Positions 37,333 to 49,442 of a stretch of DNA of 64,000 bases are shown one piece after another. Origin of the DNA: Hymenobacter sp. DG01 (GTDB lineage Bacteria; Bacteroidota; Bacteroidia; Cytophagales; Hymenobacteraceae); contig NZ_CP040936.1 of the NCBI RefSeq assembly GCF_006352025.1, positions 3,226,001 through 3,290,000 on the forward strand, in the 5' to 3' direction. Both the position numbers and the translations under genes were made by a program. The number at the start of each line of letters is the position of its first letter. Within the stretch, counting starts at the first letter, position 1. The notes under the pieces were generated by a model. The model saw only the letters and a list, made by a program, of their open reading frames with translations. It did no database searches and was not told the origin of the DNA.

Positions 37333-38007
37333 CTAAAACCGGCCCACCTTCGGAATCACTTGAATCAGGAAGCGCTTGTTGTCGCCCTCGCGGCGGCCGC
37401 TGTAGCGGCCGGTACCATAGAAGCCGCTACCCCCGATAATCAACTCAATACTGCGGTCCTGGCTGAAGTTCACACCGTTTTGCTTCCAGAGGTTGAGCAG
37501 GTTCAGGGCGCGACGGTAGCTGAGTTGATAAGTGGTCTGCTCCTCGCGGGCGTTGCGGGGGTCGCCCTGGGGATAGCGCGCGGCCATGCCTTCCACAATG
37601 ACGAGGTAGCGTACGGGCTGGTCAGTTTTTATGCTTTTGAGGACGGTACGCAGGCGCCGACCTGCTTGCAGCAGAGCCGGCTTGTAGCTGTCCTGAATTT
37701 CGTCGCGGCCGGCCTTGAACTGCACCGGCACCAGCAGCTCGTGCCGCTCATTGGTGGGGTCGTAGCGGAAGTAGCGGCCCTCCAGTTGCTGCAGGGAGTT
37801 GCGGATTTTGGTAATCTGCTCCAGCTCGGCGGCTTTTACTTTCAACTCGCCGTTGGCCTTCTTCAACTCCCCTTCCCGGTCTTTGAACAGCTTGAAGCTG
37901 TACACGAACAGCACCAGCATTACCACAAACAAGGACGTCATCAGGTCCACATAGCTGGGCCAGAAGAAGTCGTTGCTTTGGCGTTTGTTGGAAGTGGAGT
38001 TGTTCAT
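37333..38007 (-). CDS. MotB/ZorB-like OmpA-domain protein of the cytomotive cluster
   Basis: Protein of 224 residues with one N-terminal membrane helix (about 16-38). The Asp at position 21 (WPSYVDLMTSLFVVM) aligns with the proton-binding Asp of MotB. A short coiled coil (KDREGELKKANGELKVKAAE) and an OmpA-like peptidoglycan-binding domain follow (VPVQFKAGRDEIQDS, YQLSYRRALNLLNLW, DNKRFLIQVIPK). This is the stator/anchor architecture of MotB and of ZorB in Zorya. It is the last gene of the cluster and pairs with the MotA/ZorA-like gene at 38517, from which it is separated by an AT-rich small gene. Confidence 0.85.
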   Translation of the reverse strand: MNNSTSNKRQSNDFFWPSYVDLMTSLFVVMLVLFVYSFKLFKDREGELKKANGELKVKAAELEQITKIRNSLQQLEGRYFRYDPTNERHELLVPVQFKAGRDEIQDSYKPALLQAGRRLRTVLKSIKTDQPVRYLVIVEGMAARYPQGDPRNAREEQTTYQLSYRRALNLLNLWKQNGVNFSQDRSIELIIGGSGFYGTGRYSGRREGDNKRFLIQVIPKVGRF

Positions 38008-38077
38008 TGAGCTCTGCTATACGAATCTACATTGTTTAATGCCCGAAATAATTTCCAATATTAACACAAATAACAAG

Positions 38078-38479
38078 TCATTGTATAAATAAACGCTCTA
38101 TCAATTTAATAAACAGAAAACCTAAAATCCATATTACTACACACCATGCAAAATAAATATAATTTGAATTACCCGTAATACTTTTAAAGCTATGGGTATC
38201 CTTAACTAACTCTTCTTTCAGCAGCTCTATTACAACTTCACTTTCTGTATTATGCTGAATGAATTGAATTGCCTTATTTTTAAGATCATCTGAAGCGAGA
38301 TTATTTTCTACTAACACCAAATCTGATAATAGCCTTGATATCAAATACCAATCAGCATCATCCATTATATTTGTATCACTTTTTATATTACACCTAACCC
38401 AACTGTCTATATCGCCATTATATTTTCTGTATATAGCTAATTTTTCTAGAGTCACCATTACACTGTATTTATTTAACAT
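38078..38479 (-). CDS. AT-rich hypothetical protein with C-terminal membrane helix
   Basis: 133-residue protein of no family I recognise. A soluble helical N-terminal part (IYRKYNGDIDSWVRC, ADWYLISRLLSDLVLVENNL) is followed by one strong C-terminal helix (IYFAWCVVIWILGFLFIKL). Its DNA is visibly much richer in A/T than neighbouring genes and uses codons such as AAT, TTA and ATA rarely seen next door, which points to recent transfer. It starts 37 nt after the MotA-like stop and interrupts the MotA/MotB-like pair. It may be an immunity-type protein, but that is speculation. Confidence 0.6.
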   Translation of the reverse strand: MLNKYSVMVTLEKLAIYRKYNGDIDSWVRCNIKSDTNIMDDADWYLISRLLSDLVLVENNLASDDLKNKAIQFIQHNTESEVVIELLKEELVKDTHSFKSITGNSNYIYFAWCVVIWILGFLFIKLIERLFIQ

Positions 38480-38516
38480 TTATCGAATAATACTATGCAA
38501 AAGCCATTGTTAGCAC

Positions 38517-39977
38517 TTACTGCGGCTGTACGCCACCAAACAGCTTATCCATAAACCGTTGGAAACGGTTTTTCGAGGTAGCCTTTACCAGCACCGTGTT
38601 CAGGTTGGAAAGCTCGGAGAGTAGCTTGGCCTGAATCTGCGAGTCCAGCTCTACTTTGCGCATCAGCTCGCGCTGGGTGGCGGTTACGTCGCGGCTGAGG
38701 TCGGCTTGCTGGGTGTTGAGGTTCTGGAAGGGCTCCAGCTGTTTCAGCAGCTTCTCGAAGACATTGTCGGCGTTGAGCTTGTCGAAGTACTGCTGCCACT
38801 TCTCGTAGGCCAGTTGGGCTTGCCGCTCGTTGTAGGCCAGGCGCTGGTTCATGACCTCGGCGAGGCCTACCCCCGCCTGGTCGATGTGCTGCTCGGCGCG
38901 GTCCTTGAGGTTGCGCAGCTCTATCTGGTGCTTCTGGAAGAAGTCGAGCATCAGCTGCACCGAGTTGTTATTGCCGCCGATGTACTGGCCCAGGTCGTTG
39001 ATGCCTTTCTCGAAGCCCCGCAGCCGGTCCAGGATGCTGTTCACGCTCTGCGCCGACTGGTAGCCGTTCTGCAGCATCTCGTTCAGCCGCTGCTGGTAGC
39101 CCGTGAAGGCCGCAAACATCTCCGCCGACTCCCGTACTTTCTCGAACACCAGAATGTTGGCGGCGGCCATTTTGTCGTAGCCAATGGTATCAAGCCGCTC
39201 CAGGAAATCACTCTGCACCCGGATGTTCTGAGTCACCTTGTCCATGAGTGGGTTGAACAGCTCCACCTGGCCTACAAACTGCTGGTTAAACGCATCGAGC
39301 ACCGATTTCAGGTTAGTGAGCGAGCTGGCCATATCCGCGTGTAGCACGGGTAGCAAACGGGCCTGCAGGAAGGTGTAGTACTGGTTCTGAAGCCGGTCGA
39401 GCTGCTGGCGGGCCTGGCGCAGCACACCGTTGCCGAGCAGCGTCAGGAGCAGGCCCACGAAGGAGCCCGTCATAGCAATGAGCACGCCGGTCAGGAAGGG
39501 CGTCAGGGCATTTTCATCAGATACGCCGTTGCGAGCAATGCCCACAAGGCCCAGAATAACGCCCAGGAAGGTACCCAGCAGCCCCAAGTACAGGGGCGTA
39601 GCCACGGTGGCCTGCACCTCATTGTCCAGCACCTCACTCTGGCGCTCCGATATGTCCTTGAGAATACCGAAATCGGCCGCGGCACCTTTGTTGTGGCGCA
39701 GGTAATCGTTGGTATCGAGCAGGATTTCCTGGAACTCGGGGGAGGCGTTTTCGGCCTTCACCAGGCTGGTAGCAAAGGATTCGGGCGGGGCGTCGGCGGC
39801 GTACTCGGGCAGGTCGCGGCCGTCGGGCAGCACAATGCGGTGCTCCACGCGCAACGTTTCCTTGGGCGGATACAACGCCGCCAACCGCAGCGCATTGGCC
39901 CGCGTCCGCAGAAACGTCCGGATCTGCAGACCTACCACCACGGCCACTACGGCTACTTCGAGAATGATTTCAAGCAT
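38517..39977 (-). CDS. MotA/TolQ/ExbB/ZorA-like channel protein with long helical tail
   Basis: 486-residue membrane protein. It has one N-terminal helix (about 3-22), a cytoplasmic segment, then two helices (about 127-147 and 157-185) with the family pattern TPLYLGLLGTFLGVILGL and LIAMTGSFVGLLLTLLG. About 300 mostly helical residues follow (LRQARQQLDRLQNQYYTFLQ, GFEKGINDLGQYIGG, QAKLLSELSNLNTVLVKATS). The short MotA/TolQ core plus a long cytoplasmic coiled tail is the layout described for ZorA of Zorya. With the MotB-like partner it likely forms a proton-driven rotary or pulling motor (inference). No helicase or nuclease genes of Zorya are present. Confidence 0.85.
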   Translation of the reverse strand: MLEIILEVAVVAVVVGLQIRTFLRTRANALRLAALYPPKETLRVEHRIVLPDGRDLPEYAADAPPESFATSLVKAENASPEFQEILLDTNDYLRHNKGAAADFGILKDISERQSEVLDNEVQATVATPLYLGLLGTFLGVILGLVGIARNGVSDENALTPFLTGVLIAMTGSFVGLLLTLLGNGVLRQARQQLDRLQNQYYTFLQARLLPVLHADMASSLTNLKSVLDAFNQQFVGQVELFNPLMDKVTQNIRVQSDFLERLDTIGYDKMAAANILVFEKVRESAEMFAAFTGYQQRLNEMLQNGYQSAQSVNSILDRLRGFEKGINDLGQYIGGNNNSVQLMLDFFQKHQIELRNLKDRAEQHIDQAGVGLAEVMNQRLAYNERQAQLAYEKWQQYFDKLNADNVFEKLLKQLEPFQNLNTQQADLSRDVTATQRELMRKVELDSQIQAKLLSELSNLNTVLVKATSKNRFQRFMDKLFGGVQPQ

Positions 39978-39996
39978 ACAAGTACGAAGCTACGGC

Positions 39997-40145
39997 TAAA
40001 AGCTAGTTCCCCTCCTCAGCTGAGGAGGGGTTAGGGGTGGTTGATGACCGTTAGAACGAATTTTAGATTTCTAGATCTAAAAACGTTTTATGCCAAGTCA
40101 ATCACCCCTAACCCCTCCTCAGCTGAGGAGGGGAACTAGCTTTTA
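39997..40145. repeat. Large inverted repeat with 48-nt arms
   Basis: Arms 39997-40044 and 40098-40145 match in 47 of 48 positions in inverted orientation, and each contains the perfect 22-bp palindrome CCCCTCCTCAGCTGAGGAGG(GG). The 53-nt centre holds a smaller AT-rich dyad. It fills the gap between two genes of the cluster and would fold into a long hairpin in the operon transcript. A related copy is at 45771-45927. Confidence 0.85.
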
Positions 40146-40154
40146 CCCTTTTAG

Positions 40155-41657
40155 TTACTCAAACCGGATAGCGGCCTTTTGTTCAATCTGCCAGGCGCCG
40201 GCCACTTTGCGCAGCACGCCTTCTTCCTCCGTTACGATGCGGGTAACCGGGCCGGCGGGCTGCTGGTACTTGCAGGCTTCGCGCAGGGAATACTGCGCAC
40301 TCTGGATGGCGTAGGCGTGCACGGCGGGGTTGGAGGTTACGCTGAACGTAGCCAGCTCGGGCCATTGCGGATCGAGGTAAATCTCGTAGATACTGTCGTG
40401 CTGGGGCTCTTCGCTGAAATCGTACTCGCTGAACGCCCCGTTCACGGGCACCTTCACGTAGCGCGTCTGGGGCTGGTTGGCAGGGTTTGGCGCAACTGCA
40501 GGGGTAGGCAGCTGCACGGGCGGCATCAGGCTTTCAAACTCCTCCTGAGAAGAAGCGGAAGACGTGTCGGTGGTTGACAGGGGCGGCACCGCCGACATTT
40601 CGGCGGGCTGAGCGGGCGCGGCATACACGGCCGCCACAGGCGCGGAAACGGGGGCAGCTACCGGTACCGAAGGTTCGGGGGTTGCCTGGGGGGTAGCGGG
40701 CGGAGCTACCGCCGGAACCGGGTTCGAGGAAACGGCAGGGGTAGCCCGCTCGGGGGCTATAGCCGAGAGCTGCCCCCGCAGCTTCTGAAGCTCCTCCTCC
40801 ACCCGCTGCTGCACCAGCTTTTCCACTTGTTGCTGCTGAGCCGGCGTGAGGCGGTCAGAAGCGGCAGGTGCGGCAGCAGCCCGGGTGCTGCCGCCGCCCG
40901 GCGAGTTTTGCAGCGCCAGGATTTCGTCGCGACGCTTATCGATGCGGGCGCTTAGCTCCTTTTGAAAGGCCCCGATGCTTCGGCGCAGCAAGGCATAGAG
41001 CACCAGGCTCAGCAAGGACAGAATCAGGGCCAGTGGGCCGAAGAATTTGTTCATCAGACTTTCTCCGGTTCCGGTGTTCGTTTGGGTAACGGGGGTAGCC
41101 ACGCCAGCTTCATCGAGGCCCGCGTCGCCGGGCGCGGCGGCCGTAGCCTCGTCGGTGGCAGCGGTGGTATCTACAGTTTCGGGAGGCGCTTCTGCTGCGG
41201 CCAGATTCCCAATGGGCGTACCGTTATCGACGTAGTTTTTCAGGGCCGTTTCCAGGCTGGTTACGCCCTGCAGCCGCGCCGCATTGCCCTTACGGGCCGG
41301 GGAAGTACGCAGCCGGTTGATGATTTCGCGCACCAAGGTTTGCAGGCGGGAGTTGTCAGACCCGAGCCCTTTGTACATCACGCCTTTCACTTCCAGCGGC
41401 TGATACAGCGCCGAGTACACCCGCTGGTTATCCGATTTGATGCTGTTTTCCAGCGCCTTTAGCGTGCCGCCGCACTGCAGCTGATTTTTCAACTCCGGGT
41501 GGCCGGTGTCTTCATACACGAACCGGGCAGTAGCGCACCAAATCTGCACCTTACGCTCCTCCAGCGTCGGCTGACCTAGAGGTGTTTGGGCTTGGCTGCT
41601 CGCCGCCAATAGCAGCAGGCCAGTAAGCAAAGAAGCAGCGCGACGGGAAAGGGTCAT
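40155..41657 (-). CDS. Single-pass envelope-spanning protein of the cytomotive cluster
   Basis: 500-residue protein with a signal peptide (LLTGLLLLAASSQAQ), a ~170-residue periplasmic domain (with Cys 41 and Cys 62 as a possible disulfide), a membrane helix (about 206-224, FFGPLALILSLLSLVLYAL), a cytoplasmic coiled coil (FQKELSARIDKRRDEILALQ and QVEKLVQQRVEEELQKLRGQ), a long Pro/Ala-rich linker and a conserved-looking C-terminal domain (YVKVPVNGAFSEYDFSEEP to the end). I do not recognise the domains. The topology would connect periplasmic components with the cytoplasmic filament-type proteins encoded nearby. Confidence 0.8.
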   Translation of the reverse strand: MTLSRRAASLLTGLLLLAASSQAQTPLGQPTLEERKVQIWCATARFVYEDTGHPELKNQLQCGGTLKALENSIKSDNQRVYSALYQPLEVKGVMYKGLGSDNSRLQTLVREIINRLRTSPARKGNAARLQGVTSLETALKNYVDNGTPIGNLAAAEAPPETVDTTAATDEATAAAPGDAGLDEAGVATPVTQTNTGTGESLMNKFFGPLALILSLLSLVLYALLRRSIGAFQKELSARIDKRRDEILALQNSPGGGSTRAAAAPAASDRLTPAQQQQVEKLVQQRVEEELQKLRGQLSAIAPERATPAVSSNPVPAVAPPATPQATPEPSVPVAAPVSAPVAAVYAAPAQPAEMSAVPPLSTTDTSSASSQEEFESLMPPVQLPTPAVAPNPANQPQTRYVKVPVNGAFSEYDFSEEPQHDSIYEIYLDPQWPELATFSVTSNPAVHAYAIQSAQYSLREACKYQQPAGPVTRIVTEEEGVLRKVAGAWQIEQKAAIRFE

Positions 41658-41726
41658 AGGGTGTTGGTTAGGTAGGGAGCAGGAGGAAAATCTACAGTTA
41701 ATAATCTTGCTTAGAACTTGCTTTAT

Positions 41727-42191
41727 CTAAGTAAGTACCCCTTCAACTTTGCGCTTAAACTGCTTTGGATCCTCATCAGCTAAGTTTCTCAGGATTGAGC
41801 TAACCACCTCTTGGATATTAGAGCTAGTAGCTTTCAACAACCGGCGCAGCAATGCCTGTGACTCCTTGTCATTGAGGATCCTTGACAGCAAAATTTCCGC
41901 CCAATCTGATGCATGGGGCAGCAAAAGTGGCAATGCATTTATGAAGTTCGTTGTAGCTACTTCAGGGCCTGCAATTGCGTCATAAGACTCAATCGCATGC
42001 ACCAGCCCAAACATAACCTCATGCATCTCAGTGGCATCATCAAACCCCAAACACAATAAGGTAATGTGCTTGGGATCTGACAAAGAGGTAATACGCTCAA
42101 TCGTTTCCTTAAAGGAGGCCACCTGCTCATCATCCACCATGAGGCGGCTGCTACGTAGCTTCTGTGCTTCCTTTTCAACATCAATGAGCAT
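41727..42191 (-). CDS. Imm30-like immunity protein (tentative)
   Basis: Soluble helical protein of 154 residues, AT-richer than its neighbours. The blocks LLCLGFDDATEMHEVMFGLV, HAIESYD and PHASDWAEILLSRILNDKES resemble the Imm30 family of immunity proteins from polymorphic toxin systems, as I remember the family pattern; this needs a profile search. No toxin gene is visible next to it. It starts 13 nt after the stop of the giant ASKHA gene, so it is placed for cotranscription with the cluster. Confidence 0.5.
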   Translation of the reverse strand: MLIDVEKEAQKLRSSRLMVDDEQVASFKETIERITSLSDPKHITLLCLGFDDATEMHEVMFGLVHAIESYDAIAGPEVATTNFINALPLLLPHASDWAEILLSRILNDKESQALLRRLLKATSSNIQEVVSSILRNLADEDPKQFKRKVEGVLT

Positions 42192-42204
42192 GCTACTTAA
42201 ATCG

Positions 42205-45200
42205 TTACGCCTGCAGCTCGCGGCTCAGGTTGTAAAGTGCCTGTTTCAGCGGTAAGAAGAACAGGGTTTCCGGCAGGGTTTCGTCGGAGGAAAGCTGGCG
42301 CTGGAACTGGTGCAGGCCTAGGCTTAAGCTGTCCTCGATTTCGCGCTGCAGAATATCCTTCACTCGCTGACGGTCTACATCCACGCCTACTTCACGCAGG
42401 TAGGGTGCCACTTCGTCGCCTTCGAGCACGAGGGTGAGGTAGTGGCGCACGTTTTCCAGCACCTGGTCTTTCAGCGCGGCATCTACCTGGTTGAGCTTCA
42501 GGCGCTGCTGATTAAGCTCCGTGCCTTCCACAGCGCCGCTGTACTTCACGGGCTTGATGCTGTCGTAGTCCGCCGTGTTGGTTTTTTCCTCGAAAAGCAC
42601 GCCGCCATTGGTTGTAGCCTCTTTGGGATTGTCGGCCAAGATAACGCGGAAGTTGTGCGGCGGCTCGGTGCCGGTTACGGCGTGGAAGATGGCTTTTGTA
42701 ATCTTCTCAATAGCTACCAGGGAGCTACCGCCGGCCAGCAGGCGCAGGTAGAGGCTGCCTTTGCCCGAGAAGCAGAGGTAGCGCGGCGTTTTCAGGCCGA
42801 GGTGCTTCGTCAGCTGGGCCGTGTGGTAGATAATGCTGGTGTAGTGCAGGTAGAACAGCACCCGCAACTGCCGGCCTTTGCCTAGGCCTAAGGCTTGGGT
42901 GAAGCGCAGGGCATCATCGTACTTGAACAGCAAGCTGGTTACGTCGGCAGAGCCGAAATCGGTGTTGCTGAGGGCAGCGCGCAGGTAGCCTTTGTACTCC
43001 TGGTTTTGCTCGGAGTCGGGCAGGCTTTCTACGTGGCCCACGCCGAGGCGGAGCAGGCCGTTTTGCTTAGGTGCACCTTGCACGCGGGCATAACCATCAC
43101 CCCACAGGTCGTCGCCGGCAAAGCGGAACGAGGTGCTGTAGGCCGGTTTTTGGTCGGCAAAGAGCAGCAAGTCGGTGGTACCGCCGCCGATGTCAATGTT
43201 CACCACGTTTTCGTCGCGGTTGGGCACTACCTGGTTGGTGGCCGTGAGGTAGTAGTACGGCGCCACCGATTCGGTGAGGCAGATAGTGGGGCGGCGGGCC
43301 TTGAACACCTGCTGGAACGACTCGTCCCAGACCTGCTGAAACTGGTTGCGCAGGAAGCCATCGAAGCTCAGTGGTGCAAACCATACCACACGGGTATCTT
43401 CCAGAATACCGCCGTGCAGAGCCGCCTTGTGACGCAGCAGCAGCAGAATCTCCTTGAAGAAGGCCTCAATCCGCGACACGCCCTGCGGGTCCAGCTCCGC
43501 CGACCACTTCAGGTTGGTAATGAAGCGGTTCTGGGGCAGCTCCGAAGCATTTTCGGTGTTAATGCTGAAACCGATGTTGATGTTGCTGAGCACCTTGGCG
43601 GGCTCATTGGCAAACGACGTGGTTTCACAAACAGCAGTACGAATCGGGAATTCATACACTGAGCCGCCTTCGCCCACAAACGAGGGCACAAACTCGCGGT
43701 TCTGCAGGGTAGCTATGTAAGTCCAGATCTGGCCGGCACCTGTGCGGTAGCGCTGAGCGGCCGAAAGACCTGCATCGGCCACGGGTGCGTGCAGCCATTC
43801 CACTTGCACATCGGCCTCGCCAATGGTAAGCGGGCGGGGGTGTGCCGTGGGCGAATCAGCGTAGGCAATGTGGGTGTTGGTGGTACCGAAGTCTACCGCG
43901 AAGGTGAAGCGACGGGTACCGCGGTCTAGCTCGCGCCAGCGCGGCACGAACAGGCCGCGAGCCGGTTCCGCGCCAATGGTGGCGGGCGGGCAAGTCAGCT
44001 CTACCAAGTCGAAGTGGGTACCGGTCACCTCATAGTAGGTGCTGCCGGCGGTGGCCATGCTCTTTTGGGTGCGCTCGTAGCGGGTGGCGCGGCGGGCGGC
44101 ACCCTGCTCCGTGATGCGCTCCCCATTCACGAAGAACTGCAGGTCGTAGCGGCGGCTGAGCATGGTGGGCGAGTTGTCGGCATCCACCAGCATTACCTTA
44201 TAGAGGTCGTTGTACTCGGGCTGGTAGCGCACCTTGTAGAAGGGGAACACGCCCACGCCCACGGTGGCCTTTACAATGCGGCCCTTCTCCAGGATTTCGC
44301 GGCCCTGGGCATCCTTCGGGTTTTGCGGATTGGTGTAGTAGCTGCGCTCAAACGTGATAAAGCGCCCCGCCTGCACCGGCACCCGCAGCTGCACGCGCAC
44401 GTGGCTGAGGTCGATAGTGAAGGTGAGCAGCTCGGCCAGCTCGTTCTCCGTGAAGTACTCGAAAAACGCCTGTTTCAGCGGCAACAGGTAGGGGAAACGA
44501 GCCCGGCCCTGCCCGTCAGCACCGTACTGGAACGTGACTTTGCCGGTGTGGAAGCGCTGGGTATTCAGCTCGTAGGGCAGCTCCACCAGCGAGTCTTCCA
44601 GCAAGTCGCCCACCGTGAGGTACGGATACTTGAAGCCTTTGCCGGGCAGCACGCGGTTTTCCAGCGCTACCTCGTCATAATATGGTACCGGCGTGCGGTC
44701 GTCCCAGGGCTGACCGTTGAGGTAGTTAGCGCCGGGCATCGTTAGGTTCGGGCGCAGTACCAGTGGTCTAGGCCGGCCGGCAATGGCCTCACGGGTGGGC
44801 TGAATAAACAGGTCGGAGCTGGTCACGGCCGACTGGTCCGCGCGGCCAGGCAGTGGCACACCTTTTACGCTCACCAGGTTGCCGTGCACGTCCACCAGCG
44901 CGGGGTAGCGGGCCGCAAACTGCTGCGCGCTCCGGTCGCCTTGCATCTGGAGCTGGTTGATTTTACTGCGGTCGAGGCCAGCGTACACGCTGCCGGCAAA
45001 CTCGCGGCGCTGCAGCTGCGGGTAGGCCAGGAACAACTCGTACACAAACTCCCGGAACTGCGGATCACGGTCTTCCAGCAGTACGGTTTGCTTATCGAAG
45101 TAATGGCCGCGGGCTTGTGGGCGCTCCAGGTCCAGAGGCTTTACCTCAGGGCCCGTGAACAGGATGGTCAGCGGGGAGGTGCCGCCCAGCAGGCGCGTGC

Positions 45201-45672
45201 CGCCCGCCAGCTCCGGCGACTCATAGTACACGAGGTACATGTCGGTGAAGTCGCGGAAGCGCTCATCTTGCATATACAGTTGCAGCGTCTCGCCTAGCAA
45301 GCGCGTGCCCTCCTCCTGCCGCATCCGGCGGATTTCCGCCTCGGCATTCCAGCGGCGCAGCGTGATTTTGCGGCCGGCCTGGGTGTAGAGGTGGTAGTTG
45401 TAGAGCAGCTCCAGCAGGTCCCAGAAGTGAGTCGTTAACTCGTGGTACACCGAGCCAGGGTTACGCTGCCCTTCGCGGGCCAGGAAGTCGAAAGCCGTTT
45501 CAAACAGGTGCATCCGTGCAAACGGCGTTGGGATGCTCACGGCTAGGTTGCGGGACTTTCCACCGGCCGGGTCCGTAACGGTATTAATTTCGGTGCTCGT
45601 TACCGGCGCCGTTTTCTGCCAGCCTTGAACCTGCTGGGAGCCATTATTATGTAAGCGAAGGACTTTGGCCAT
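42205..45672 (-). CDS. Giant actin/Hsp70-fold (ASKHA) ATPase-like protein
   Basis: 1155 residues, soluble. An Hsp70/actin-like nucleotide-binding domain occupies the second half: phosphate-1 loop FAVDFGTTNTHIAY (about 592-604), phosphate-2 loop VNIDIGGGTTDLLLF (about 824-838) and an adenosine-type motif YLCFSGKGSLYLRLL (about 965-979). The first ~590 residues form an unrelated, unrecognised region. The size and the late position of the ATPase domain recall SrfB-type 'virulence factor' proteins, but I cannot confirm that without a profile search. It is followed by the Imm30-like gene and preceded by the tubulin-like gene, so an actin-type and a tubulin-type protein are encoded side by side. 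Confidence 0.85.
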   Translation of the reverse strand: MAKVLRLHNNGSQQVQGWQKTAPVTSTEINTVTDPAGGKSRNLAVSIPTPFARMHLFETAFDFLAREGQRNPGSVYHELTTHFWDLLELLYNYHLYTQAGRKITLRRWNAEAEIRRMRQEEGTRLLGETLQLYMQDERFRDFTDMYLVYYESPELAGGTRLLGGTSPLTILFTGPEVKPLDLERPQARGHYFDKQTVLLEDRDPQFREFVYELFLAYPQLQRREFAGSVYAGLDRSKINQLQMQGDRSAQQFAARYPALVDVHGNLVSVKGVPLPGRADQSAVTSSDLFIQPTREAIAGRPRPLVLRPNLTMPGANYLNGQPWDDRTPVPYYDEVALENRVLPGKGFKYPYLTVGDLLEDSLVELPYELNTQRFHTGKVTFQYGADGQGRARFPYLLPLKQAFFEYFTENELAELLTFTIDLSHVRVQLRVPVQAGRFITFERSYYTNPQNPKDAQGREILEKGRIVKATVGVGVFPFYKVRYQPEYNDLYKVMLVDADNSPTMLSRRYDLQFFVNGERITEQGAARRATRYERTQKSMATAGSTYYEVTGTHFDLVELTCPPATIGAEPARGLFVPRWRELDRGTRRFTFAVDFGTTNTHIAYADSPTAHPRPLTIGEADVQVEWLHAPVADAGLSAAQRYRTGAGQIWTYIATLQNREFVPSFVGEGGSVYEFPIRTAVCETTSFANEPAKVLSNINIGFSINTENASELPQNRFITNLKWSAELDPQGVSRIEAFFKEILLLLRHKAALHGGILEDTRVVWFAPLSFDGFLRNQFQQVWDESFQQVFKARRPTICLTESVAPYYYLTATNQVVPNRDENVVNIDIGGGTTDLLLFADQKPAYSTSFRFAGDDLWGDGYARVQGAPKQNGLLRLGVGHVESLPDSEQNQEYKGYLRAALSNTDFGSADVTSLLFKYDDALRFTQALGLGKGRQLRVLFYLHYTSIIYHTAQLTKHLGLKTPRYLCFSGKGSLYLRLLAGGSSLVAIEKITKAIFHAVTGTEPPHNFRVILADNPKEATTNGGVLFEEKTNTADYDSIKPVKYSGAVEGTELNQQRLKLNQVDAALKDQVLENVRHYLTLVLEGDEVAPYLREVGVDVDRQRVKDILQREIEDSLSLGLHQFQRQLSSDETLPETLFFLPLKQALYNLSRELQA

Positions 45673-45682
45673 ATCGGAACCC

Positions 45683-45720
45683 CACCCCCCGGCCCCCTCC
45701 CCTCCGGGAGAGGGGGAGCC
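45683..45720. repeat. GC-rich dyad repeat
   Basis: A CCCCCGGCCCCCTCCCCTCC stretch followed by its imperfect complement GGGAGAGGGGGAGCC, directly upstream of the ASKHA start codon. It looks like a dispersed palindromic element fragment. Confidence 0.5.
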
Positions 45721-45770
45721 AGACGAAGGTCATTCGGGGTGACTTTTTAGACTAGAAACTACAACTAGAA

Positions 45771-45927
45771 AGCTAGTTCCCCTCCTCAGATGAGGAGGGG
45801 CTAGGGGTGGTTGATAATCGTTGAACGAAGCAGTATAGGTAGTTCAACCAAACAACATCAGCAACGAAGTCAACCACCCCAGCGTCGGCTGAAGCCGCCG
45901 CATCCCCTCCTCATCTGAGGAGGGGAA
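45771..45927. repeat. Second copy of the large inverted-repeat element
   Basis: Left arm 45771-45814 matches the arm at 40001-40044 with few differences. The right arm (45870-45927) carries the same core palindrome with CAGATG/CATCTG at its centre but has a 23-nt GC-rich insertion. It fills the gap between the tubulin-like and ASKHA genes. Confidence 0.75.
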
Positions 45928-45936
45928 TTTTCGTTC

Positions 45937-47385
45937 TTACACCACCTTTACCTTTTCCTCAAACGCCTTATCCGTCACATCATAGAACAGCTCCAGCATT
46001 TTGCGGAAGTTGTCGGGTTCCTGGATGGACTTCTCGGTTTTGTTGAGGTTATCGAGGAGGTAGTTGTGGCTGAGACCTTTGTTGAAGAAGTCATTCCACT
46101 TCTTTTCCACGGGCTTACCGAGAATCATGGCGTTGAAGTCTTCTGTCTGTAGGTCGAAGGGGCGGAAGGAACGACGGTTCTGGGCCAGCTCCTGCAGCCA
46201 CTGATCTACGCCGGAGTCCTGGCTGTGCAGGAAGTTGTTCAGCTCCCGGAAGATGGGTTCGTTGCGCATGGCGTAGTCCAGCTTCAGGTTGTCGGCGTAG
46301 GGTGCCTTGTCGGTGGGCAGGTGCTGCTTGTGGTAGCGCGTGAAGTACAGGAACTGCGTGAGCTGCTTGGCAATGATTTCGCGCGACTCATCAGGCAGGT
46401 GGCTGAACTGAATTTCCAGCGCATCGGCCTGTAGGCCATACTCGTGGAAGTGCGGGCCACCGGTGCGCAGCTCGGCAGGCGAGTAGCGCATAAAGTCCAC
46501 GATACTCAGGGCCGCCAGCAGCTCAATTACGTGGGCTTTGTTTTTCTGCTGGGTGCCGCCGGGCTGGTTTTCGTAGGGCGTATCGGGCGTGTCGGCGAGG
46601 TAGTACAGCGCGTCGAGGCCCTGGAGGTTGTGCTCGTAATAGCTAAGCGCCGCCTTGGTTTTCGTCAGGAAGTTGTTGGAGTCGATGACAGCGTTGTCCT
46701 CGCTCTGGAGAGCGAAGTAGGGCATCACCGTTACGGCGCCGGTGGGTGCGTCGCGGAGGTAGCGGGCGTTGCTGAGGCGGGTGTTGGTGTCCTTCAGGTT
46801 CTTAAGCATGAGCGGGAAACCCGCCGCACCTGTACCGCCGAAGATGCTAGACACGAAGAACACCCGGTCGCCATCCTGGAAGTTGTCGGCAAAAAACCGC
46901 ATTTCTGGGCTTTCCACCAGCTTGTTCAGCACAATGCTGCCCACGTTTGGGGAGCCACGGAAACCAATGGTCAGCGGGCTTTCCAGGTTGTCCTGGGTGA
47001 AGAGCAAATCCACGAGGCCCTTAGAGTCAACGGACAGGCCGTCGTAGCTCAAATACTGCCGGAAGCTTTGGTTGATGCCGCCGAAGTCGAAGATGAAGGT
47101 ATCCTTCACCGAGCCGTTCACATCCTGCGAAATACCGCTGAGCGTGCTGATATCAGTTTTGAAGAATCCTTCTTCGCGGGGGCCCAGGCGCTTATAAATC
47201 TGCTGGTAGCTCTGCAGCAGCTGCACCGTGCGGTTCATGTCGCCATTGTGCGCGTCGGGGTCAATGATGATGGGCACTACCCGGTCGCAGTTGGGCAGAT
47301 CTACGCCCGCGGCCAGCAGCATGGTGAGCGAGCGAATCACGCGGGAGCCCGTGCCGCCAATACCGAATAAAAAGAGTTTAGCCAT
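45937..47385 (-). CDS. Tubulin/FtsZ-like protein
   Basis: 482-residue soluble protein with tubulin-superfamily hallmarks. The N-terminal Rossmann start LFLFGIGGTGSRVIRSL (5-21) is followed by VVPIIIDPD, and the nucleotide-binding T4 loop appears as VSSIFGGTGAAGFP (about 178-191), a variant of the canonical GGGTGTG. It belongs to the 'tubulin-like' (Tubulin_2-type) group rather than to cell-division FtsZ. Relatives were proposed as the core of a membrane-remodelling system together with vWA and OmpA proteins. Both of those partner types are encoded in this cluster. Confidence 0.85.
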   Translation of the reverse strand: MAKLFLFGIGGTGSRVIRSLTMLLAAGVDLPNCDRVVPIIIDPDAHNGDMNRTVQLLQSYQQIYKRLGPREEGFFKTDISTLSGISQDVNGSVKDTFIFDFGGINQSFRQYLSYDGLSVDSKGLVDLLFTQDNLESPLTIGFRGSPNVGSIVLNKLVESPEMRFFADNFQDGDRVFFVSSIFGGTGAAGFPLMLKNLKDTNTRLSNARYLRDAPTGAVTVMPYFALQSEDNAVIDSNNFLTKTKAALSYYEHNLQGLDALYYLADTPDTPYENQPGGTQQKNKAHVIELLAALSIVDFMRYSPAELRTGGPHFHEYGLQADALEIQFSHLPDESREIIAKQLTQFLYFTRYHKQHLPTDKAPYADNLKLDYAMRNEPIFRELNNFLHSQDSGVDQWLQELAQNRRSFRPFDLQTEDFNAMILGKPVEKKWNDFFNKGLSHNYLLDNLNKTEKSIQEPDNFRKMLELFYDVTDKAFEEKVKVV

Positions 47386-47391
47386 GAAGGA

Positions 47392-47486
47392 GGGACTTAG
47401 GGACTTGGGGCTTAGGGACTTGGTTTTCTATCCTAAGAACTCAGTCGAAAACAACATCAACCTAGCTCCTAAGTCCTCAAGTCCCT
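47392..47486. repeat. GGGACTT(A/G)G inverted/tandem repeat
   Basis: Three tandem copies of GGGACTTRG-type units at 47392-47424 face inverted copies (CCTAAGTCC, TCAAGTCCCTAA) at 47467-47486. It lies between the membrane protein and tubulin-like genes and belongs to the same family as 51491-51596. Confidence 0.6.
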
Positions 47487-47492
47487 AAATAC

Positions 47493-47885
47493 CTAGAAAG
47501 GTGTCGTGCTGGCGTTGGTGGAGCCTTTGCGCAGAATCAGAGAGAGGATGAAGAACCAGAACAGGCCCAGGATGGCGTTCCAGGTGGCCAGCCAGTAGAT
47601 GTAGCTGTGTTCGGTTACCTGCTGGGCGTTGGCCTGCCAGATGGCTATCACGAAGGCAATCAGAGCGTTCAGCACCAGAAACAGCGCCCAGTGGCGGCCC
47701 TTGTTGAAGGTTGCCACACCCAGGGCCCGGTTGATGAGGTAGTAAAATACCAGCACCAGCGCCAGCGAAATGCCCAGGTTCAGCAGCCCAATGTTGGGGA
47801 AGATAACGTCGCGGTACACGGGCGTATCGGCGGGCGGCTGGGGGGCACCGATGATTTCGTAGAGGGAGCGGAACAGTGCTTTCAT
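47493..47885 (-). CDS. Three-helix membrane protein of the cytomotive cluster
   Basis: 130-residue membrane protein with an amphipathic N-terminus (MKALFRSLYEIIGAPQPP) and three helices (about 33-52, 65-84, 97-118). Possible membrane anchor for the tubulin-like protein, whose gene follows. No family recognised. The start at 47885 was taken because the 46-codon upstream frame extension contains repeat DNA. Confidence 0.7.
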   Translation of the reverse strand: MKALFRSLYEIIGAPQPPADTPVYRDVIFPNIGLLNLGISLALVLVFYYLINRALGVATFNKGRHWALFLVLNALIAFVIAIWQANAQQVTEHSYIYWLATWNAILGLFWFFILSLILRKGSTNASTTPF

Positions 47886-47897
47886 GGAAGGAAGTAA

Positions 47898-47917
47898 CGC
47901 GAAGCTTCCGCTTCGCG
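47898..47917. repeat. Small perfect hairpin
   Basis: 8-bp stem (47898-47905 / 47910-47917) with a TTCC loop, 13 nt upstream of the start codon of the three-helix protein. It could modulate translation or be a dispersed repeat remnant. Confidence 0.5.
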
Positions 47918-48074
47918 AATCGTGAAACGATGGGGGTTGAGCGAAATTGTAGGGGTAGGCGCCGACAGGCTTTTCAGCCGCAATGCGGCGTACTGTTTCG
48001 TAGTTAAACGAAAATCGTTCCAACTGGTACGGCCGGCGGCAGTAGCTTCGAGCCAGGAGACGGCTTGACCTTTC

Positions 48075-49442
48075 TTATTCAGCGGGTTGCAGGGTCATGG
48101 GTAATTCAAAAATCGGGCGCTTCTCCCCTTCCTGCCGCTCTAGCCCATCCAGCAGGGAGCTTAAGGCGAAGGTTTTAGGCGCGGGCTTGGCGTCGTTTTT
48201 AGTGGTCCACTGGGCTACCCAGGACGGGCGCTGGTCCTGCAGGCGCAGCACCAGGGGGCGAGACGCTTTGGGCTGCCGGGTCAGGCCTACCTTGGCAAAA
48301 TGGGTGAACTTACTTTCGGGGCCGCTGCTGGCCTTGGTTTGGGTGGTGGCGGCAAACACATCCAGCAGCTTGGCATCGGTATCCACGCCCTGCAGCTTGA
48401 GATTTTGCTTGAGGTAGGCCACGTCGCGGTACTGGCCGGGCAAGCCGCTCAGGTCCAGGCCCACCACAAACTCTACGGGCTGCTGGGCCGAAGCTTCACT
48501 GACCGAAATGACGCGGTAGGTATCGGCGGTGCGCTTGCTGGCCCCGGCGTCGCCGTAGTACCAGCTGCCTTTGTTCTGAAACTTGCTGAGGACGGAATAC
48601 ACTGGCTGCGGGTACGTGACGCCGAAGTGAGCTTGCTTGGCCGGCTGCTTTTCCAGTAGCGCGGCATCAAACTGCCGCACGGCGGCGGCGGGACCTACTA
48701 CCCAGATGTAGTACGGAATTTCGGTGTCGCAGCAGTTGGTTTTCTTGCCCGAGGCCACCAGCGCCGGGTAGTACGTGCCCCGGAAATCGGAGGTGTAGCC
48801 GTACACCGATACCGCCAGGTCCGATTTCTCGCCGCTACGGGCCAGGGCATCGGCAATGTCGGTTTTGATGTAGGGGATAGCGCCAGCGTTTTTCGGGGAG
48901 TAAATGAAGTCCGAAATCAGCACGCTCACGGTGCCGGGCCGGTAGTAGTTCGTCATCAGCGTATCGAGCACCGAGGGAATATCGGTGCTCTTGGCGGGCT
49001 GCTGAATACCACTGCGCACCGTGCCGGAAATGGCCTGGTACGAATCCTTATAAGGCCGCTCCTTAATGCGGTAGAACGTTTTCTGGCGGGCGGCAGTCGT
49101 GCGGTTTACCTCCGAAAGAAACTGCGCTACGTGCTGCTGAAACTTGGTGTTCTCGCCCCCTACCCCGGTTTTCGGCATGAACCCTTCCATGGAGCCCGAC
49201 ACCTCCAGAAACACGTTCACAGCCTGCAGGGCCTGAGCGTTTGGCGTGGCAGCGGGGGTAGCACCTGGCTCTGGCGTGCGGGCCGGAACCGCGCCGGGCG
49301 CCTCCGTAGGCGGCACGTCTTGGGGTACTTCAACGGCTCCGTCCTCCGACTTCATATCGGAGCGGGAATAGCAGCCCGGCAACAGGGCCAGGGAAAGGCC
49401 CAGCATGGGCAACAGGCGGGAAAAGGCAGGTAGGTGGCGCAT
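48075..49442 (-). CDS. vWA-like lipoprotein of the cytomotive cluster
   Basis: 455-residue lipoprotein; the start at 49442 gives lipobox LLPGC (Cys 24), then a Pro/Ala linker. From about residue 73 a von Willebrand A-like fold is suggested: NVFLEVSGSMEGF carries the MIDAS-type DxSxS motif with Glu in place of Asp (80-84), and TVSVLISDFIYSP supplies a later Asp strand. The C-terminal half (FVVGLDLSGLPGQYRD, LVLRLQDQRPSW) is beta-rich and unrecognised. vWA proteins typically mediate metal-dependent protein contacts. It is the promoter-proximal gene of the cluster. Confidence 0.75.
   Translation of the reverse strand: MRHLPAFSRLLPMLGLSLALLPGCYSRSDMKSEDGAVEVPQDVPPTEAPGAVPARTPEPGATPAATPNAQALQAVNVFLEVSGSMEGFMPKTGVGGENTKFQQHVAQFLSEVNRTTAARQKTFYRIKERPYKDSYQAISGTVRSGIQQPAKSTDIPSVLDTLMTNYYRPGTVSVLISDFIYSPKNAGAIPYIKTDIADALARSGEKSDLAVSVYGYTSDFRGTYYPALVASGKKTNCCDTEIPYYIWVVGPAAAVRQFDAALLEKQPAKQAHFGVTYPQPVYSVLSKFQNKGSWYYGDAGASKRTADTYRVISVSEASAQQPVEFVVGLDLSGLPGQYRDVAYLKQNLKLQGVDTDAKLLDVFAATTQTKASSGPESKFTHFAKVGLTRQPKASRPLVLRLQDQRPSWVAQWTTKNDAKPAPKTFALSSLLDGLERQEGEKRPIFELPMTLQPAE

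Follow-up and report, generated by a model that had tools for sequence, protein, structure and literature searches.

The sequence studied here is a 64-kb window from Hymenobacter sp. DG01 (contig NZ_CP040936.1; the genome comprises 5.04 Mb in two contigs), and the element in question is a run of genes on its minus strand, between positions 37333 and 49442. The run is a broadly conserved and, within the literature searched, undescribed variant of the predicted FtsZl1/vWA systems, in which five genes form a chassis and a ZorAB-like motor is one output. A preliminary description of this DNA had listed seven codirectional genes here. All of these are open and their order recurs widely, but the run holds nine genes, every one of them codirectional and open. 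In order of transcription they encode a vWA-like lipoprotein, a small membrane protein (TM3), a tubulin-like protein (TUB), an actin-type ATPase (ASKHA), Imm30, a single-pass protein (SP), a MotA/ZorA-like protein, x133 and a MotB/ZorB-like protein:

48075 to 49442, minus strand: vWA-like lipoprotein (P0009 read from its second Met), with a lipobox seen by eye and a motif, ExSGS...T...D, resembling a metal-ion-dependent adhesion site (MIDAS).
47493 to 47885, minus strand: TM3, small, with three hydrophobic segments, placed by hydrophobicity and by the start of its homologues.
45937 to 47385, minus strand: TUB (P0007), tubulin/FtsZ-like, 482 amino acids (aa), with loops GIGGTG and FGGTGAAG and with Pfam and profile matches.
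45778 to 45926, no strand: pair of palindromes resembling repetitive extragenic palindromes (REP-like), in the TUB–ASKHA gap (45778 to 45801 and 45903 to 45926), from a pattern scan.
42205 to 45672, minus strand: ASKHA (P0006), 1155 aa, with an FtsA-like ATPase core in the C-terminal half.
41727 to 42191, minus strand: Imm30, of an immunity-protein family (PF15565, E = 1.4e-19), a variable insert outside the conserved set.
40155 to 41657, minus strand: SP, with a signal-peptide-like start by eye and a transmembrane (TM) segment near residues 201 to 219.
40008 to 40134, no strand: second pair of REP-like palindromes, in the SP–MotA gap (40008 to 40031 and 40111 to 40134), from the same scan.
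38517 to 39977, minus strand: MotA/ZorA-like motor subunit (PF01618, E = 9e-5), with three hydrophobic segments and a long C-terminal tail.
38078 to 38479, minus strand: x133, 133 aa, one hydrophobic segment, without family match.
37333 to 38007, minus strand: MotB/ZorB-like subunit, with one TM segment, which carries an invariant Asp21, and an OmpA-like domain.

Five of these genes, those for the vWA lipoprotein, TM3, TUB, ASKHA and SP, constitute the conserved chassis. Of 80 loci from genome contigs (the best 80 of at least 547 relatives), 73 have all five in this order on the same strand, as do 18 of 19 loci from the family, 11 of 13 from the order and seven of nine from the class or phylum. 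Six of the seven misses on genome contigs lie at contig ends; in the other, L095, TUB is broken and ASKHA gives no match. The hidden Markov models for the core genes were partly trained on loci later scored with them; before retraining, distant ASKHA proteins scored 3e-13 (L050) and 2e-7 (L067). The 80 loci span Bacteroidota, Chitinispirillia (Fibrobacterota), one metagenome-assembled genome of Leptospiraceae (Spirochaetota), Candidatus Thermochlorobacter and Candidatus Kapaibacterium. Prevotellaceae and Muribaculaceae are among the carriers, and the Prevotellaceae records are, by their titles, of rumen, gut and oral origin. The preliminary description had proposed a multicomponent system, and had looked to recurrence of the same seven genes in unrelated genera for support. 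The proposal of a multicomponent system is supported, and the seven genes do recur together in unrelated genera.

TUB is present in 52 of 60 genomes of its own family, in all six genera, in 33 of 118 genomes sampled from the order, and in eight of 296 sampled from the phylum, three of which are absent from the class sample. Among the 118 order genomes, ASKHA is found in 25 and a ZorB-like MotB in 18. TUB and ASKHA are both present in 25 genomes, TUB alone in eight, ASKHA alone in none, and neither in 85 (Fisher P = 5e-19); without the own family the counts are 16, 8, 0 and 85 (P = 1e-13). For ASKHA and MotB, 15 genomes have both, 10 ASKHA only, three MotB only and 90 neither; without the own family, the counts are 6, 10, 3 and 90 (P = 3e-4). 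These P values ignore the relatedness of the genomes. Seven of the TUB-only genomes correspond to the distant loci L064–L070 and the eighth is G136; L067 and L068 do hold a distant ASKHA that lies under the detection limit of the ASKHA survey, and an ASKHA match is found in eight of the 13 distant TUB loci. TUB and ASKHA distances are closely correlated (r = 0.968 over 67 loci, without control for species distance), a value reached in 0 of 500 permutations; the other gene pairs give 0.57–0.87. One genome (G063) has its set split over three places (vWA–TM3–TUB, ASKHA–SP–MotA and MotB) and keeps all seven genes. In another (G031:C1:3504067-3509324), TUB and ASKHA are each in two adjacent fragments, and the operon looks broken.

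Five cyanobacterial plasmids also carry a TUB match, and the two inspected, from Gloeothece and Picosynechococcus, hold vWA, TUB and ASKHA together (E-values, in that order of hosts: vWA 3.7e-22 and 3.4e-19; TUB 1.3e-71 and 4.2e-70; ASKHA 1.2e-53 and 1.4e-65). Both have in addition a small open reading frame (ORF; 161 and 183 aa) without match to any core model, and the Gloeothece vWA gene is on the opposite strand. The preliminary description had seen in this run a Bacteroidota form to which an actin-type ATPase had been added. That idea is not supported as stated: of the 33 genomes of the order with TUB, 25 have ASKHA too and the remaining eight carry only a distant TUB, and ASKHA homologues lie beside TUB on the two cyanobacterial plasmids as well.

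The assignments of TUB and ASKHA come from motifs and profiles. Scanned as a single sequence, TUB matches the Pfam tubulin families weakly (PF00091, E = 0.004; PF13809, E = 0.015), within residues 167–223 only. The tubulin-like call of the preliminary description needs dividing: at E <= 0.1 the family matches PF00091 in 30 of 30 members (best 2.7e-5) and PF13809 in 28 of 30 (best 8.7e-7), but P0007 itself stays under both gathering scores (17.9 against 33 bits, and 15 against 27). The residues GGTG (10–13) and IFGGTGAxG (181–189) are invariant in the 16 rows of alignment A1; we rely on A1 because the motif counts in genome-contig loci, which were found with TUB peptide patterns, are partly circular. 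The predicted GTP-loop FGGTGAAG of P0007 is the FtsZl1 signature GGGTG[ST]G with substitutions. The Gloeothece homologue (E = 2e-28 to P0007), whose annotation reads tubulin-like, exceeds the PF13809 cut-off with 40.8 bits; a second cyanobacterial homologue, at 20.7 bits, is under the cut-off (27), as is the distant relative G605, which PF13809 matches over positions 2–179. A search of PDB sequences with the TUB profile gave nothing convincing (the tubulin/FtsZ entry 3zid at 0.84), and the C-terminal FtsZ domain of Pfam has no match in TUB. Full-length homologues have 469–562 aa; the broken TUB of L095 is a fragment of 274 aa. By these sequence comparisons TUB is related to Pfam Tubulin_2/FtsZl1, below the cut-off.

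ASKHA (P0006) has a phosphate-1 motif, DFGTTN, followed by a phosphate-2 motif, DIGGGTTD, and the strict patterns for these are present in 71 and 59 of 75 homologues, respectively. An N-terminal part of about 585 aa extends beyond the ATPase core. The single sequence matches FtsA in Pfam at E = 0.0064, and 16 of 34 family members do so at E <= 0.1. In profile–profile comparison (hhalign) the C-terminal half gives 1.9e-7 with FtsA, 4e-4 with Hsp70 and 3e-3 with MreB-like proteins, compared with 0.2–0.62 for three unrelated alignments; the MreB-like alignment has seven rows, one of them (L213) a wrong-frame ORF, and its value is a lower bound. By motif and profile, then, the ASKHA call is upheld, and the protein resembles FtsA most. 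Membership of the SrfB family (PF07520) is not supported, with matches in three of 34 members at E <= 0.1 (best E = 0.046) and none in the other 31. The FtsZ and FtsA genes of this genome sit elsewhere, away from the cluster, so TUB and ASKHA are an additional pair. ASKHA matches none of 50,697 phage records (TUB was left out of that search) and one of 72,556 plasmid records, on a 1.77-Mb Prevotella replicon.

The lipoprotein start at 49442, chosen in the preliminary description, yields a lipobox by eye, and a lipobox-like motif is present in 61 of 76 homologues. Where the vWA canon is DxSxS...T...D, the first Asp of the MIDAS is a Glu in the window protein (ExSGS...T...D); [DE]xSGS occurs in 60 of the 76 homologues, with Glu in 59, and the two cyanobacterial homologues have DGSGS. 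The vWA-like call held up in one kind of comparison and not in the other: against eight vWA domains of the same genome hhalign gives E = 1.8e-5 (Prob 78), but Pfam vWA matches none of 32 family members, nor either cyanobacterial homologue, at E <= 0.1. A PDB search with the vWA profile gave nothing at E <= 10. It is through profile comparison that the protein is assigned to vWA. The TM3 ORF opens at 48023 with TTG; since its homologues begin at 47885, the true start is probably there, giving 130 aa. Tyr48 and Trp66 of TM3 are invariant (14 rows), and the protein has no Pfam match. In SP, the TM segment is followed by a variable linker and then by a conserved stretch of about 100 residues at the end.

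The window MotA matches MotA_ExbB (PF01618) at 22.7 bits, against a cut-off of 22.9, and six of 17 homologues match this family at E <= 0.01. A PDB search with the MotA profile aligned mostly helical proteins to its tail, and found ZorA (8qyh) at E = 0.27 only. MotB is clearer. Although the single sequence matches OmpA in Pfam only at E = 0.032, PADLOC models for ZorB match 14 of 14 members, and 8vvn (E = 1.7e-11) and 8qyd (2.4e-9) head the PDB search with its profile. The first of these entries is named in the Zorya paper (passages of PMC11890865), and the sequence of the second is identical to that in 8qyh, whose other chain is labelled ZorA. All 14 members keep Asp21 in the TM segment, and the region, with a putative peptidoglycan-binding domain, aligns to ZorB structures. 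Judged by such alignments, the pair is closest to the ZorAB of Zorya. In five of ten genome-contig loci listed with both genes (L091, L094, L097, L101 and L105), MotA, with starts as chosen here, opens 8–11 bases ahead of the SP stop. Relatives of MotA and MotB are found also at L219 (G105) and L220 (G156), with no TUB or ASKHA in the stretch fetched and in genomes without a TUB match. L221 (G146), perhaps a Zorya-like locus, has a MotA-like tail and two genes like MotB next to a 1702-aa protein.

The motor pair is a recurrent, optional module, one of several outputs. Among 133 loci with full-length TUB, 40 have MotA after the core and 64 have no MotA match despite room for the gene; 21 are too short, seven lack ASKHA and one is split. 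The status of 13 of the 133 was set by hand, and a very divergent MotA could escape detection. The claim that the motor belongs to an invariant machine therefore has to be dropped, and with it the seven genes as an obligate unit. On the TUB tree (a quick method, with support from the Shimodaira–Hasegawa-like approximate likelihood ratio test, SH-aLRT, only) the motor label changes 10 times by the group table or 8 by the change count, compared with a shuffled mean of 21.8, and at least 5 changes are forced by branches with SH-aLRT >=95. L054, with MotA, and L055, without, are sisters; Arcicella L135, with, and L103, without, share one four-row group. Where MotA is missing, one zinc-ribbon-like protein is found in 16 Prevotellaceae-type loci and a second kind in 13 others; the zinc-ribbon-like call follows CxxC pairs seen by eye, and the Zn_ribbon_8 match of L104 in Pfam is under the cut-off. 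In L055 the place of the motor is taken by a lipoprotein that is an aspartyl protease and by a TM protein with WG repeats, and a lipoprotein resembling, by eye, that of L055 is present in the Spirosoma loci L107 and L131. In the distant clade, the genes after ASKHA encode OmpA (L083), a protein kinase (L079), Hsp70 (L050) or TerD (L084). L050 (G054) is a second, distant copy of the system, in which ASKHA is followed by Hsp70 (PF00012, E = 2.3e-77) and by a protein of 554 aa that matches no family.

Genes like the LemA and TPM genes of the window lie alongside in eight of 19 family loci, and the place is thus stable there. TUB proteins of the same genus are spread over three lineages of the tree. 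At L048 (G044), a divergent operon adjoins the POP and GNAT genes known from the flanks of the window operon and, on the opposite strand, a second SP gene of full length; the arrangement looks like replacement of the native operon. Up to three flanking ORFs per stretch (114 proteins, 40 stretches, 20 genomes) were compared with PADLOC; 117 proteins, taken from 40 further stretches in these genomes, served as controls. At E <= 1e-10 the flanks gave mad2 (two proteins), PDC-S02, RtcR-type, CARF_2OG and PD_DExK; the controls gave PDC-M41A, MkoA, MkoC, CARF_2OG, mad3, PD-T4-6, PDC-S37 and DpdJ. The names come from 25 of 41 flank families and 12 of 12 control families, and one protein can match many models. 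With no visible enrichment of PADLOC names over the controls in these sampled flanks (25 of 41 families), a defence island is not supported.

Imm30 and x133 have no tblastn match in 20 sister loci, and as parts of the machine they are not supported; only 10 of 19 reach MotB, so the place of x133 is half covered. x133, which has no family match in Pfam, NCBIfam or PADLOC scans, is probably a variable insert. The four REP-like palindromes, in two pairs, have at most 1 mismatch to one 24-base pattern, and none of 100 shuffles reaches four. The TUB–ASKHA gap, which holds one of these pairs in the window, contains in a sister genome (L031, 6207–6635, minus strand) an ORF that by eye is like a Y1 (IS200-type) transposase. 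Small GIY-YIG-like ORFs, also by eye, occupy it in L041 (8926–9315) and L042 (8743–9039).

What might such a set of proteins do? Our leading guess, held tentatively and at somewhat less than even odds, is a machine that spans the envelope, in which the chassis is conserved and the output can be exchanged, and which would maintain or remodel the envelope under stress. On the cytoplasmic side of the inner membrane, the FtsA-like ATPase and its tubulin-like GTPase partner would build an assembly switched by nucleotides, by analogy with FtsA and FtsZ, with TM3 and the C-terminal domain of SP as its anchors. The outer face would fall to the vWA lipoprotein and to the N-terminal part of SP, which would read or grip the envelope. 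Assembly or disassembly would switch the output module, here an ion-driven stator with a ZorB-like arm gripping peptidoglycan, and the result would be to couple the cytoplasmic nucleotide state to envelope tension. In favour of this reading count the recurrent five-gene order, the co-occurrence and correlated distances of TUB and ASKHA, the seven genes kept by G063 despite its split set, the nearness of ASKHA to FtsA and of MotB to ZorB, the location of FtsA and FtsZ elsewhere, and the other genes that stand where MotA is missing. The prevalence in the family (52/60) and the LemA/TPM neighbours (8/19) agree with a stable role. A more specific statement, which we consider possible but doubtful, is that this is an envelope machine of a new category: TUB and ASKHA, a second, non-division actin–tubulin pair, would assemble at the inner membrane, connect through TM3 and SP with the exported vWA lipoprotein, and drive or gate a rotary motor of ZorAB type in the lineages that carry one, with other output modules elsewhere.

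Several findings weigh against this envelope machine. None of the 13 distant TUB loci has all five core genes by the present models, and outside the family TUB is patchy (15 of 295 genomes in the class sample, four of them from the own order). With FtsZ, hhalign gives TUB a weak match (E = 0.035), compared with 0.047–0.59 for seven other alignments, and the strict phosphate-2 motif is missing from 16 of 75 ASKHA homologues. Of the 104 loci whose status is definite, 64 have no MotA match, and three of 18 genomes with MotB relatives lack TUB, so coupling of motor and core is not obligatory. The signs of replacement within the genus, taken with the patchy distribution, suit a system that is dispensable and exchanged no less than a housekeeping one.

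A system of biological conflict is the alternative that fares best, although we think it unlikely to be the answer. Its envelope part would sense an intruder, ASKHA and TUB would be a threshold switch or a scaffold that depends on nucleotide, and the genes exchanged at the end would supply the effectors, on the model of Zorya and the systems with GTPase, tubulin and HSP70 in Kaur et al. 2020 (passages of PMC7159879), where tubulin, HSP70 and vWA are themes of predicted conflict systems. The ZorAB-like motor fits such a role, as do the swappable end modules (at least 5 forced changes of motor label on the quick tree, SH-aLRT >=95), the Hsp70, protein kinase and TerD of distant relatives (L050, L079 and L084), the cyanobacterial plasmids and the apparent replacement within one genus. 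However, no nuclease, pore-forming family or Zorya effector is matched among the nine window proteins, the system is present in 52 of 60 genomes of the family, the phage records searched with ASKHA gave no match, and the sampled flanks have no more PADLOC names than the controls (25 of 41 flank families).

Rather less probable is a complex for signalling or quality control only, with TUB and ASKHA as non-polymerizing switches and the motor, if present, as an ion channel or force sensor. The related FtsZl1 is noted as missing filament elements, yet the tubulin-superfamily proteins characterized by then all form filaments (both in passages of PMC2875224). The confinement of the tubulin matches of P0007 to residues 167–223, the additional N-terminal part of ASKHA (~585 aa) and the zinc-ribbon-like proteins in place of a missing MotA suit such switches, but TUB and ASKHA are kept as a pair. 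The least credible is a device for secretion, gliding or surface motility in which, as in the analogy of GldLM and the type IX secretion system (T9SS), a motor would drive an envelope component: the MotAB-type motor, the exported lipoprotein and the Bacteroidota-rich loci suit it, but Pfam recognizes no outer-membrane pore among the nine proteins, MotA is missing in 64/104 loci, and Prevotellaceae and Muribaculaceae, which are not known to glide, carry the system.

If the envelope-machine reading is true, many Bacteroidota, including Prevotellaceae of the rumen, gut and mouth, hold a second actin–tubulin pair; the FtsZl1 prediction of 2010 gains a concrete gene set open to testing; and a member of the tubulin family is linked with a MotAB/ZorAB-type rotary motor.

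Four known systems invite comparison. Like FtsA and FtsZ of the divisome, which would be an analogy of working, an ASKHA ATPase here adjoins a tubulin-superfamily gene; unlike them, TUB has no FtsZ C-terminal match, and FtsA and FtsZ are separate genes elsewhere in the same genome. The GAP1-N2 GTPase-centric systems (Kaur et al. 2020, passages of PMC7159879) likewise mix tubulin, ASKHA-fold and membrane vWA proteins with variable partners, and their tubulin theme is described for firmicutes and actinobacteria. In contrast to these, Pfam finds no GAP1/TRAFAC GTPase (none besides tubulin) and no FNIII match among the nine proteins, and the present ASKHA is nearer FtsA than HSP70. Zorya ZorAB is described as a 5:2 motor with an essential Asp, peptidoglycan binding and a tail (passages of PMC11890865), and the window pair shares the MotAB-type motor, the invariant TM Asp in the B subunit, the OmpA-like domain and the long tail of the A subunit. 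It differs in that no PADLOC Zorya effector is matched among the nine proteins, the NCBIfam ZorB1 score of MotB is 23.8 against a cut-off of 400, and the motor is tied instead to TUB, ASKHA, vWA, TM3 and SP.

The closest comparison is with the membrane-remodelling system predicted by Makarova and Koonin in 2010, of FtsZl1, vWA, GTPase and OmpA proteins (passages of PMC2875224). The preliminary description had pointed to this link, and the relatedness of TUB to PF13809 and the vWA gene in the operon sustain it. As in the FtsZl1/Tubulin_2 systems, a tubulin-like gene lies beside vWA and membrane genes, with an OmpA-type domain nearby, here inside MotB; in passages of PMC9871819, Tubulin_2 proteins are handled as a divergent side group. 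FtsZl1 is described in the same 2010 passages with an extended coiled coil and a helical C-terminal domain (Huta_2051 has 1051 aa), while P0007 scores 15 bits against the PF13809 cut-off of 27 and, to go by length only, is half as long. Pfam finds no P-loop GTPase or Ser/Thr kinase among the nine proteins, although a kinase, as in the FtsZl1 context so far as it is described there, does adjoin the distant relative L079. On the features tested, membership of both FtsZl1 and Zorya systems fails. Titles, abstract starts and passages of the open-licence literature yielded no description of TUB with this ASKHA or with a motor. Beyond the FtsZl1 systems, as those passages present them, the cluster adds a 1155-aa ASKHA, TM3, SP and a motor.

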